From NCBI RefSeq assembly GCF_000336915.1, contig NZ_AOMD01000015.1, forward strand, positions 121,158 through 185,157: 64,000 nucleotides of DNA, given 5' to 3'. Shown in pieces: positions 17,226-61,366 of this stretch. The translations under genes and the position numbers were made by a program. Positions within the stretch are counted from its first letter, which is position 1; every line of letters starts with the position of its first letter. The stretch comes from Halococcus saccharolyticus DSM 5350. GTDB lineage: Archaea > Halobacteriota > Halobacteria > Halobacteriales > Halococcaceae. The notes below the pieces were generated by a model that was not told the DNA's origin, searched no databases, and worked only from the letters and a program-made list of their open reading frames with translations.

Positions 17226-17345
17226 GGTGAGCGGTTGGCGCGCGGGAGCACGCGAAGCGTGCGACTCGCGCGAGGGATGAGCGGAGCGACGTGAGCGAAG
17301 CGAACGGAGCGAGCGAATCGGCTGGGGAGGATGTGGCTTGCGGTC
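17226..17345 (+). repeat. Hairpin-bearing intergenic element, copy B1
   Basis: This 120-nt element lies between two leftward genes. It begins GGTTGGCGCGCGGGAGC and ends GGCTGGGGAGGATGTGG, with GAGCGAAGCGA-type repeats inside. The hairpin GCACGC-GAA-GCGTGC occupies 17248-17262. Its reverse complement recurs at 51974-52087 with a different but still self-complementary stem, and a long variant lies at 53179-53513. Confidence 0.8.
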
Positions 17346-17445
17346 TCTCGTTTGCGTCGTGATTCGCTACAGACGAATCGTCGTTGTCACCGGATCCTTC
17401 GGTCAGTTGCTCGACTGCCACCGGCCGAGAACCCGTTATCTATCG

Positions 17446-30346: not shown

Positions 30347-30715
30347 ATGAGCACGGGCGCGACCACCGACGGGGAGTCTATCCCCGAGATCGAAGTCTCG
30401 GAGTCGGCTGCCGACGAGGCGCTTTCGCTTCTCGACGGCGAGGGGATGGACACCGACATCGCCGGGCTCCGGCTGTTCGTCCAGCAAGGCGGCTGTGCCG
30501 GCCTCTCGTATGGAATGCGCTTCGACACCGAACCCGAGGGCGACGATCAGGTGTATGAACACCACGGCCTTCGGGTGTTCGTCGATCCCGCCAGCATGAA
30601 CTACGTCGGCGGCAGCGTTCTCGATTTCGAGGGCGGCCTGCAGGGCGCTGGCTTCCACGTCGAAAACCCCAATGTCGTCAGCGAGTGCGGCTGCGGCGAG
30701 AGCTTCCGCACCTGA
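30347..30715 (+). CDS. A-type Fe-S cluster carrier (HesB/IscA/ErpA)
   Basis: A 122-residue A-type carrier that delivers Fe-S clusters to apoproteins. The three cluster cysteines are present in the canonical arrangement: QGGCAGLSYG near residue 50 and ECGCGESF near the C-terminus (CxC). An acidic N-terminal extension of about 17 residues precedes the fold. The start ATG 30347 is chosen from that layout. No isc/suf genes are adjacent. Confidence 0.93.
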   Translation: MSTGATTDGESIPEIEVSESAADEALSLLDGEGMDTDIAGLRLFVQQGGCAGLSYGMRFDTEPEGDDQVYEHHGLRVFVDPASMNYVGGSVLDFEGGLQGAGFHVENPNVVSECGCGESFRT

Positions 30716-31251
30716 AAGCCCTCGGAACTGCGCGGGCCACCGGTTCGCGCATCCGGCCTCACTACGTTCGGCCGGACGCCCGACGGCGGTTCCTCGCCCT
30801 TTTCATGTCCGCCGGGAGAGCAAAGCTCTCCCGAGCCCTGACTCGCTCCGCTTGTCAGGACACCAGGCCCGCATTGCGCGACCCCCGCTGTCGCGTCTGC
30901 TCACGGGCGCTCCGCCCGTTCGCACGGGCCGAGGCGCTACGCGCCTCGTGGCGGCACGCGCTGAAGCCCCCCGTCCCTCCCCGTGCGGCCGCGATAAACG
31001 CGGCCGCGTGGCTTCCTTCCGCTCCGCCACCACACAGCTTCTGCACCGCTCCGCACAGCACCGCCGAAGCCCTCGACTACTCGCTCCGCTCGCAGTCTCG
31101 CCCTTCATCCACCAGGAGAGCTTCGCTCTCCTGAGCCTTGACTCACTTCGTTCGTCGAGACGCCAGGCCCGCACCGCGACCACTTCCGCACCGCAGCCAC
31201 CACTCACGCGAGCGTCGAACCCTCTTTGTGGCCCCCGTTCGTAGGTAACCC
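30716..31251. repeat. Intergenic hairpin-module region before samp1
   Basis: There is no credible gene in these 536 bases. Two modules of the family seen after pccA lie here (30792-30882 and 31098-31177). They carry CGGGAGAGC-AAA-GCTCTCCCG (30813-30833) and CAGGAGAGC-TTC-GCTCTCCTG (31113-31133). Other perfect hairpins are ACGGGCG-CTC-CGCCCGT (30903-30919), GAGGCGC-TAC-GCGCCTC (30931-30947) and GCGGCCGCG-ATAAA-CGCGGCCGC (30985-31007). Three-base loops dominate. Confidence 0.85.
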
Positions 31252-39958: not shown

Positions 39959-40396
39959 GTGGCTGGGGAGGAGTAAGCCCCCTTCTGTTCGTCCCGGCAT
40001 TCGGCTGAGCGTCCGCATCCCTGCCGGGCTACCGTGCGGCTCGCGCCGCGTGGTGCGGACTTGCACCGGTGAGGATTCGCCGTTCCATCGATCCCTGCTC
40101 TTCGTTCCTCAGTGGGGTCTCCCTCGCCTCGCGGCTCGGTTCGCGCGCTCGCGGACTGGCTCGCGGGCGATGCCCGCTCGCTCGTTCCGGGGCGCGATGC
40201 GCCCCGTGCCGCTCGCGCCGAGGAGGCGGCTTCGCCGCCTCCCGCACTTCACAGGTCCGAGCAGGACGTGTCGTTGCTGTTCCAGTGCCGACGGTCTCCC
40301 GTCCCGGGGTTTCCCCGGTCACCTGCCCGGCGGTGGGGGGACTTTCCTCGCGTGCGCGCCTGCCGGCGCGCCGCGGTGGCCAGGCTCTCCCTGCCG
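39959..40396 (-). ncRNA. rnpB: RNase P RNA, archaeal type A
   Basis: On the minus strand this is the catalytic RNA of RNase P, which removes tRNA 5' leaders. Near the 5' end it has GAGGAAAGTCCCCCCAC (about 40335-40351), the universally conserved CR-I. Near the 3' end it has GAACAGAAGGGGGCTTAC (about 39973-39990), which is CR-V plus the P4 3' strand. GGGACTTTCC pairing, the GGGGAAACCCC hairpin and the long GC hairpins (GGAGGCGGC..., GGGGCGC-GAT-GCGCCCC) fit P10-P12 and others. The ends GGCAGGGAG and CTCCTCCCCAGCC can form P1. The length of about 440 nt is normal for haloarchaea. Exact ends are estimated. Confidence 0.93.
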
Positions 40397-51863: not shown

Positions 51864-51973
51864 CTCGGTATTGTCGAGAGCGACGTGACGCTGGTCAGAA
51901 TCTACCTCTTATCGCGACAAACCGATGAGAAACTAGTGTGTGGTCCGGAACGCCCGCACTCACCCGAAACAAC

Positions 51974-52087
51974 TGAGAACCGCAGGCCACACCCTCCCCA
52001 GCCGATTCGCTCGTTCGTTTCACTCACTCGCTCATCCCTCGCACGAGTCGCGCGTCTTCGACGCGCTCCCGCGCGCCAACCGTAACC
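51974..52087 (-). repeat. Hairpin-bearing intergenic element, copy B2
   Basis: The reverse complement of B1 (17226-17345) with the same ends (GGTTGGCGCGCGGGAGC at 52065-52081; CTCCCCAGCC at 51994-52003). The hairpin is GCGCGTC-GAA-GACGCGC on the minus strand (52050-52066). Its stem differs from that of B1, yet pairs perfectly. It lies in the convergent gap between the DUF4385 and mvaD stops. Confidence 0.8.
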
Positions 52088-53091: not shown

Positions 53092-53665
53092 ACCTGCGAA
53101 GCGGCCGACACGCGAATAAACGTCCCGAAACGGTGCGCTCCACTGGTGGTGCTGCCGGTGGGACACCCCTTGCTTTTGGTTGCGGTGGCGCGCGGGAGCA
53201 GTGCGGGACCGAAGGTCCCGCAGACCGTGCGAACGGGTGCTTCGCGCCCGTGAGCAGACGCCAGAGGCGCGACTCGTGCGAGGTCTGCGCGAGCGGTGCG
53301 AGGCGCGACCGGAGGGAGCGCCTCGATGCGAATAGCGCGAGACCTTCGGTCTCGCGAACCGTTCGAGCGGGCCTTCGGCCCGCGAGAAGACGGCGAACGG
53401 AGTGAGCCGTGAGCGCAGCGAGTGCAGGCTCGTCAGAGCGAAGCTCTGACGGCGGATGACCGAGAGAGCGAACGAAGTGAGCGATCGAGGGAGTCGGTTG
53501 GGGAGGCGTGTGGACGTTGTGGTACGATAGCGGAGCGGTGGCGGTTTCTCATATACGCCGGCACTCGCGGTTCGTTGTTTGTTTCGACCGCATCAAACCG
53601 GCGTGAACGATCGGCGGAATACCGGGTGGCTCAACGCTTTTCTCCCGGGCCGACGATTCGACAGC
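53092..53665. repeat. Divergent intergenic region with hairpin array B3
   Basis: There is no gene in these 574 bases. The array B3 (53179-53513) keeps the B1/B2 ends but has five perfect hairpins inside, all with GAA or TTC loops: 53203-53221 (8 bp), 53233-53251 (8 bp with one G-U), 53336-53356 (9 bp), 53367-53383 (7 bp) and 53432-53450 (8 bp). The stems differ in sequence. A TATA-like ATATAC is near 53551, before the DJ-1 gene. Confidence 0.85.
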
Positions 53666-54295
53666 ATGACCTCCGCGAACCCGATCGAATCGGCCGCAAT
53701 CGTGCTCTACGAGGGGTTCGACGAACTCGACGCGATCGGCCCGTACGAGGTGTTCCAAAACGCCGCCGAAGCAGGGGCCGATCTCGACGTTGCACTCTGC
53801 ACGCTCGAACCCGCAGACAGGGTGACGGCGAGTCACGGTCTCGTCATCGAACCCGACGCTGCGTTCGACGATCTCGCCGCCGACCCCGATCTCGTCGTGG
53901 TTCCCGGTGGCGGGTGGAACGATGGAGCCGAGCACGGCGCGCGGGCCGAAGTCGAACGTGGTGGGCTTCCGGACGCGATCGCGGAACGATATCGCAACGG
54001 CGCGGCTGTCGCGTCGGTCTGCACCGGCGGGATGATCCTCGCTGCGGCCGGTGTCCTCGACGGCCGGCCAGCGACCACCCACCACGGGGCGATCGACGAT
54101 CTCTACGAGACGGCGGCAGAAGTGATCGATGCGAGGGTCGTCGACGATGACGACGTGCTCACCGCCGGTGGCGTCACCTCAGGGATCGATCTCGCGCTGT
54201 GGCTCGTCGAACGGGATCTGGGTACTGACACCGCCGATACGGTCGCCCGCGAGATGGAGTACGAACGCCGCGGTGAGGTGTATCGAGCCGACTAA
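53666..54295 (+). CDS. DJ-1/PfpI-family protein
   Basis: A 209-residue glutamine-amidotransferase-like protein of the DJ-1/PfpI superfamily. The nucleophile elbow is VASVCTGGMILAAAG near residue 115, the conserved Glu is in EGFDELDAIGPYEVF near residue 17, and TTHHGAIDDL follows. The C-terminal TAGGVTSGIDLALWLVE is typical of the AraC-type and isonitrile-hydratase-like branch. No chaperone, protease or deglycase role can be assigned. Confidence 0.9.
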   Translation: MTSANPIESAAIVLYEGFDELDAIGPYEVFQNAAEAGADLDVALCTLEPADRVTASHGLVIEPDAAFDDLAADPDLVVVPGGGWNDGAEHGARAEVERGGLPDAIAERYRNGAAVASVCTGGMILAAAGVLDGRPATTHHGAIDDLYETAAEVIDARVVDDDDVLTAGGVTSGIDLALWLVERDLGTDTADTVAREMEYERRGEVYRAD

Positions 54296-60998: not shown

Positions 60999-61366
60999 CC
61001 TGCGTTTCGCGACCGACTTTCGACTCGAACTCCTTCCTTTTGAGCGACGGATGACCGCTGAACTGGCAGCGGCGGTGCGGGCCTGGCGTCTCGACGAATG
61101 CCAGAGCACGCTTTGCGTGCTCCGAACTCTCGTTCACTTCAGTTCACGAGAACGAAGTGAGTCAAGGCTCAGGAGAGCGAGGCTCTCCTGGCGGATGAAG
61201 GGCGAGCGAGTGAAACGAGTGAGGGCTTCGGCGGTGCTGTACGAAGCGGTTGCGGAAAGCGCCAGCAGTTCTACCGCTCGCTTCGCTCACGGAGACAGGT
61301 CTTTGCAGGGGATTCGAGGGAGCGAGCGAAGCGGGTGACCGAGAACCTCCTGTAAAAAGTAGGTGC
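60999..61366. repeat. Intergenic hairpin-module region after the bc cluster
   Basis: There is no gene in these 368 bases. An inverted copy of the pccA-side module spans 61072-61210, with the hairpin CAGGAGAGC-GAG-GCTCTCCTG (61170-61190) and an insertion bearing GAGCACGC-TTT-GCGTGCTC (61104-61122). A T-poor stretch with GAGCGAGCGAAGCG follows. The convergent korB stop is at 61367. Confidence 0.8.

Follow-up and report, generated by a model that had tools for sequence, protein, structure and literature searches.

Between mvaD and the DJ-1/PfpI gene of Halococcus saccharolyticus DSM 5350 lies a row of short hairpins that share a GAA or TTC loop and differ in their stems. An earlier note on this DNA placed the row in a divergent promoter region and attributed it to selection on structure or to amplification of modules. 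Is the row a feature of these two promoters or part of something larger, and has its structure been under selection? We addressed these questions in the whole stretch of 64,000 nucleotides in which it lies (hereafter, the window) and by comparison with other archaeal genomes.

Hairpins in the gap between mvaD and the DJ-1 gene

The five GAA/TTC-triloop hairpins are real and span 53202-53451; four are perfect and one has a single G.T pair:

53202-53222, perfect hairpin, GAA loop, 9 bp stem
53233-53251, fifth hairpin, ACGGGTGC-TTC-GCGCCCGT, with one T.G pair
53336-53356, perfect hairpin, TTC loop, 9 bp stem
53367-53383, perfect hairpin, TTC loop, 7 bp stem
53431-53451, perfect hairpin, GAA loop, 9 bp stem

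Hairpins are more frequent here than in shuffled sequence. Over 3000 dinucleotide shuffles of 53179-53513, perfect hairpins with stems of at least 7 bp had a mean of 0.055 and a maximum of 2, against 4 observed; when the loops were restricted to GAA/TTC, the mean was 0.0003. Across the whole window, 10 hairpins with stems of at least 9 bp were observed against 0.7 expected, the background being taken from the window and the fetched loci. Several perfect triloop hairpins of the window sit in the archaeal RNase P RNA (39961-40395, minus strand, RF00373, 99.6 bits).

The divergent setting had been correctly described, with mvaD on the minus strand and the DJ-1/PfpI gene on the plus strand. MvaD of the window is 88% identical to that of H. 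morrhuae. The DJ-1/PfpI gene (53667-54295) is missing from the locus in H. thailandensis, and H. morrhuae has a different gene there. Further hairpins, absent from the earlier note and containing internal tandem G.A mismatches, were found at 53228-53256, 53300-53324, 53390-53410 and 53460-53490. These proved to be the most informative part of the stretch 53179-53513.

A dispersed repeat that grows by gaining hairpin modules

Used as a query, the 335-bp stretch matched 51 times in its own genome; one match covers almost its whole length (75% identity), and many are partial and lack internal pieces. It belongs to a repeat that is dispersed, intergenic, specific to haloarchaea and sharply bounded at its 5' edge. 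One strand of this repeat folds as P1, a variable P2 and P3, followed by a conserved G-rich box. The copy in the window is organized as follows:

53184..53531, plus strand, whole copy of the element (about 348 bp), running from the 5' box through the modelled 3' domain; the 3' domain match is 53452-53531 (74.9 bits)
53184..53198, plus strand, 5' box GGTGG, P1 5' strand CGCGCG and GGAG; the sharp 5' edge of the family, common to most copies, the sequence upstream not being conserved
53199..53258, plus strand, insert module M, with hairpins 53202-53222 (GAA loop) and 53228-53256 (TTC loop, tandem G.A at the base); missing from the orthologous copy L208
53259..53269, plus strand, P2, short variable hairpin CGCC-AGA-GGCG
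53275..53280, plus strand, P1 3' strand CGTGCG
53284..53453, plus strand, insert module N, flanked by AGG and GGATGA; nested in it are hairpins 53300-53324, 53336-53356, 53367-53383 and 53390-53410, besides its own hairpin 53431-53451; missing at the orthologous site L208
53454..53459, plus strand, conserved unpaired GGATGA
53460..53490, plus strand, P3, two Watson-Crick pairs alternating with tandem G.A, GAA loop; 79 distinct copies, covariation, predicted in the plus-strand RNA fold
53494..53513, plus strand, conserved 3' box TCGGTTGGGGAGGCGTGTGG

Minimal copies run in the order GGTGG, P1 (CGCGCG), GGAG, the variable hairpin P2, CGACT, P1' (CGCGCG or CGTGCG), AGG, GGATGA, P3, TCGGYTGGGGAGG and TGTGG, and the same plan is found in other haloarchaeal genera. 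The P2 helices of minimal copies comprise 108 Watson-Crick pairs and 1 A.C. At the site orthologous to that of the window, genome G002 (L208) carries the minimal form only, without M and N; as far as it is visible, the copy in MAG SW_9_67_24 is likewise minimal. Module N is present in the own genome but not in sister genomes at two more orthologous sites (L003/L147 and L259/L260/L261), and module M recurs in L189, L194, L202 and L203 and partly in L017, L019, L022, L023 and L026. Copies grow by gaining such hairpin modules, and the 335-bp copy of the window would be a minimal copy of roughly 110-130 bp to which M, N and the nested hairpins were added. The proposed amplification of modules is thus supported in part, since all five listed hairpins fall in module M or N, missing from the sister-genome copy, and the stretch is a dispersed repeat. 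Replication slippage, one of the causes suggested for it, is unsupported, because homologous modules occur in other copies around the genome, and the modules are not tandem duplicates. A CRISPR array was rejected, as the repeats are not identical direct repeats at regular spacing.

In 38 of 45 distinct copies, four GG tracts are retained in the segment GGYTGGGGAGGNNTGTGG of the 3' box (53496-53513). In DNA as GC-rich as this, the tracts hint weakly at a possible two-tetrad G-quadruplex, which might be plausible at high internal potassium. In the copy L194, a short tandem repeat (GCGGTAGTGCTGCTT)n stands immediately before the 5' box.

The window holds two other copies and two elements of a related type, here called 'type 2':

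51969..52039, minus strand, 3' domain of a second copy, lying downstream of mvaD and at a site common to most of the genus (81.4 bits)
17273..17355, plus strand, third copy, 3' domain (68.9 bits); element also present at the orthologous site in L151
61044-61365, plus strand, related 'type 2' element with a diverged 3' domain at 61191..61253 (23.9 bits)
about 30700-31230, minus strand, related 'type 2' element

The 'type 2' elements read GGTGGATGAAGGGCGAG...GAGGGCTTCGGCGGTGCTGT with repeated CAGGAGAGC/GCTCTCCTG hairpins. Elsewhere, certain copies (L018, L019, L022, L023) terminate in T-tracts near the apparent stop of a minus-strand gene.

With R1, a covariance model of the 3' domain of the element used at a cut-off of E <= 0.001, we found 54 matches in the own genome and 28-87 per genome in all 10 of 10 Halococcus genomes. 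In a survey of the haloarchaeal class, for which per-genome counts are those among the best 32 matches listed, 60 of 145 genomes and 27 of 58 genera had matches; this distribution is very patchy, and the carriers include Halorussus and Natronomonas. A phylum-wide sample of 197 genomes contained 10 with matches, all ten from the same order, and none outside it. Plasmids of Halorussus, Halobaculum, Natrinema and Halococcus carry the element as well, and no feature is annotated beneath these plasmid matches; it is also present on some megaplasmids. A phage origin was rejected, as the phage records searched held no match, and so was a known RNA family, as no covariance model of Rfam 15 matched the region even at E <= 5. 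A literature search by six core sequence motifs found no description of the element. As far as Rfam and the literature were searched, the repeat is apparently undescribed.

All of the 91 examined copies (91/91) are intergenic by codon scoring, a simple score from which the gene calls were made. The orientations of the neighbour genes of 89 copies are -- in 31, -+ in 21, ++ in 20 and +- in 17, both genes being opposite to the element strand in 31 of the 89. Copies thus occur in every gene arrangement, and the suggested link to divergent promoters is not borne out. A promoter-bound regulatory array was rejected, since the orientation to genes is not fixed and, at the same site, the sister genome carries no more than the minimal form; the lack of a fixed orientation to the neighbour gene in the 89 copies likewise led us to discard an intrinsic terminator or mRNA riboswitch. 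Ten neighbour genes typed with Pfam are unrelated (peptidase M48, HAD hydrolase, pyridine-nucleotide oxidoreductase, DHDPS, TGT, class I W/Y tRNA synthetase, EPSP synthase, PALP enzyme, SRP54 and DJ-1), and a regulon or riboswitch was rejected on this ground.

The core helix fold is kept while its stems change

Selection on structure, the other proposal of the earlier note, is supported, best of all for a hairpin outside its list, P3 at 53460-53490, the fold of which is retained at orthologous sites with different stems. The usual pattern of P3 in 79 distinct Halococcus sequences is two Watson-Crick pairs, tandem G.A/A.G, two pairs, tandem G.A/A.G, two pairs and a GNA loop. As the search that yielded these 79 sequences maximised pairing, a set of 34 sequences chosen by length only was tested separately. 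In this set, 97.5% of P3 cells are paired, versus 72.6 +/- 2.1 in shuffled sequences. The covariation score is 0.794, versus 0.307 +/- 0.033 for shuffled and at most 0.146 for slid versions; kinship among the sequences inflates the contrast with the shuffle control, but not that with the slide control. Six of six tested P3 pairs covary, having changed on both sides, and the most constant positions of the helix are the tandem G.A.

The fold belongs to one strand. The best-hairpin score is 6.8 for the element strand, 4.4 for dinucleotide shuffles and 2.3 for the complement. In P3, G.U occurs about 20 times and A.C once; in P1, 57 copies give 301 Watson-Crick pairs, 38 G.U and 3 A.C, with 31 of the G.U cells at one position. 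This large excess of G.U over A.C in both helices indicates that one specific strand folds or is under constraint. P1 alone gave no covariation signal above shuffles, because it is nearly invariant. The core helix fold is kept on one strand while the letters of the stem are swapped.

Could mutation alone account for these hairpins, with intra-strand template switching making or repairing palindromes in GC-rich intergenic DNA and no selection on the fold? The stems of P2 and of the modules are near-perfect yet turn over fast, and whole hairpins are replaced at orthologous sites, as this mechanism would allow. However, such correction of palindromes would remove the tandem G.A mismatches, and it leaves the conserved unpaired boxes and P1 unexplained; the homology among dispersed copies also goes far beyond local mutation. 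We consider the mutation-only reading highly improbable in general and largely excluded for P3.

At orthologous sites the core identity is 0.90, versus 0.81 in the adjacent flank. The site on the htpX side is occupied in 10 of 10 Halococcus genomes and the mvaD 3' site in 9 of 10; as both are found genus-wide with different stems, the fold appears to be kept in place. P3 at orthologous sites is either nearly unchanged or swapped whole for another well-paired P3, which looks like an exchange of hairpin blocks between copies. Ectopic gene conversion, by swapping such blocks, would explain this replacement of whole hairpins. Pairing is retained in resident copies, which suggests a role in place and not only during transposition, although the copies studied are mostly the best-scoring ones, a sample that favours intact copies. 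Stem sequence turns over with pairing kept, and some sites are kept throughout the genus. At the htpX site of genome G004 (L252), an unrelated stretch the size of a gene, possibly an insertion sequence, lies between the neighbour gene and the element copy.

The core is 88-91% identical between orthologous copies, 84-87% between within-genome paralogues and 85-86% between non-orthologues of different genomes. Paralogues are thus no closer than between-genome non-orthologues, and neither a recent burst nor wholesale homogenisation is seen in this comparison. In four species, one of the sites lacks a copy and the neighbour genes stand close to each other, so individual copies can be absent. No target-site duplication is evident at this empty site, the single one compared and one with uncertain edges.

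These comparisons bear on the possibility that the repeat is a non-autonomous mobile element of the MITE/PATE type, moved in trans and otherwise functionless, the structure of which is conserved for recognition during transposition only. Such an element would be dispersed, patchy across genera and present on some megaplasmids, as is the case here; it could occupy a site in some clades and leave it empty in others, and the nested insert modules resemble small mobile repeats inserting into palindromes (PMC3119063). However, PF01797 (Y1 transposase) had 0 matches in the own genome (G000) and in G003, which carry 54 and 87 copies, respectively. The absence of a Y1 gene from these genomes argues against a present IS200/IS605 or RAYT link, and dependence on IS200/IS605 was rejected. 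Moreover, within-genome paralogues are not near-identical, sister species have copies at the same sites, two sites are occupied through most or all of the genus, and pairing has not decayed in the tested copies. Mobility without another function is thus unlikely.

Possible forms of the folded strand: single-stranded DNA or structured RNA

Repetitive extragenic palindromes of bacteria, known as REP/BIME, are moved by RAYT tyrosine transposases. By analogy with them, we tentatively propose, as an explanation somewhat short of probable, that the haloarchaeal element acts in place as a folded single strand, likelier single-stranded DNA bound by a hypothetical structure-specific protein. The DNA of the element would be exposed as a single strand during replication or recombination and would then fold, and the putative protein would bind it in this form, as with REP/BIME repeats.

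The loops are relevant to this proposal. Among 68 distinct perfect hairpins, 28 have GNA triloops and 15 the complement TNC, and the closing pair is C-G in 28 of 28 GNA loops and 14 of 15 TNC loops. A GNA triloop closed by C-G characterizes the extraordinarily stable DNA minihairpins (PMC4686876; PMC6479982), and its frequency in the element recalls the minihairpin d(GCGAAGC), although minihairpins are synthetic oligonucleotides whereas the element is a genomic repeat family (PMC4686876, PMC6479982). We counted for DNA both the C-G-closed GNA/TNC loops and the 31 of 89 copies opposite to both neighbours.

An RNA could nevertheless be the folded molecule: the element strand would be transcribed and fold (P1, P2, P3, sheared tandem G.A), perhaps binding a protein or the ribosome, and each of the many copies would be a small noncoding RNA gene or part of a longer transcript. 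The covariation, in which G.U is frequent and A.C nearly absent, agrees with this, as do the unpaired boxes conserved across genera and the conservation at orthologous sites. The RNA folding energy of the window copy is far better than that of shuffles on the element strand (z -4.97) and less so on the other (z -3.03), whereas DNA folding energies (z -4.24 and -4.41) do not discriminate the strands. P3 columns 8/28 show a wobble path from C-G through U.G to U-A; this path and the strand-biased RNA folding fit RNA at least as well. On the other hand, no shared promoter was found upstream of the copies, the 5' edge of which is sharp, Rfam gave no match even at E <= 5, 31 of 89 copies run opposite to both neighbours, and the C-G-closed 3-nt GNA loops, with the TNC loops of the insert modules, point to a preference of DNA rather than of RNA. 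A multicopy structured RNA is therefore an appreciable but doubtful possibility. The choice that remains is between folded single-stranded DNA bound by a putative protein and a structured RNA, with function and partner hypothetical; we lean slightly to the former, in the shape of a REP-like element.

Acting as RNA or as single-stranded DNA at dozens of sites per genome, the element may represent a class of structured nucleic-acid elements new to science and limited to one haloarchaeal order, with two Watson-Crick pairs alternating with tandem sheared G.A as its signature; we regard this as a real possibility, though not yet as a likely one. Dozens of covarying structured elements per genome have apparently gone unannotated in a well-studied archaeal group. 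If they act in place, they would form a new level at which chromosomes or genes are regulated; if mobile, they would be a hairpin-based repeat for which no transposase is known. The alternating G.A helix is an unusual and testable structural signature, and the very high internal salt of these organisms offers a natural setting for asking whether folds of single-stranded DNA or RNA are selected.

Comparison with known systems places the element near several of them. In integron attC sites, the structure of one folded strand is conserved while the stem sequence varies. The haloarchaeal element likewise keeps the fold of one strand while its stem letters vary, but it has neither a cassette array nor a uniform orientation. 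The PATEs and SMRs of Haloquadratum walsbyi are also transposase-free haloarchaeal repeats with palindromes, and modules M and N resemble the SMRs, small repeats that insert into the palindromes of other repeats (PMC3119063). PATEs are tied to IS605-type transposons, and the homogeneous ones are more than 90% identical between copies (PMC3119063); in contrast, by description rather than by sequence comparison, the element has no Y1 gene in its own genome and a core only 84-87% alike.

The likeness to REP/BIME is that both are short, dispersed, intergenic and hairpin-forming, with dozens of copies and sometimes inverted pairs. The haloarchaeal element differs in being longer (about 110-335 bp), in having several hairpins and a tandem G.A helix, and in the absence of a Y1 gene from its own genome. 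In another haloarchaeal family, BIME-like inverted pairs about 100-150 bp apart, with their 3' ends facing, were observed at G056:C64:102262-102486, G056:C53:124630-124853, G039:C1:1634785-1634989 and L228.
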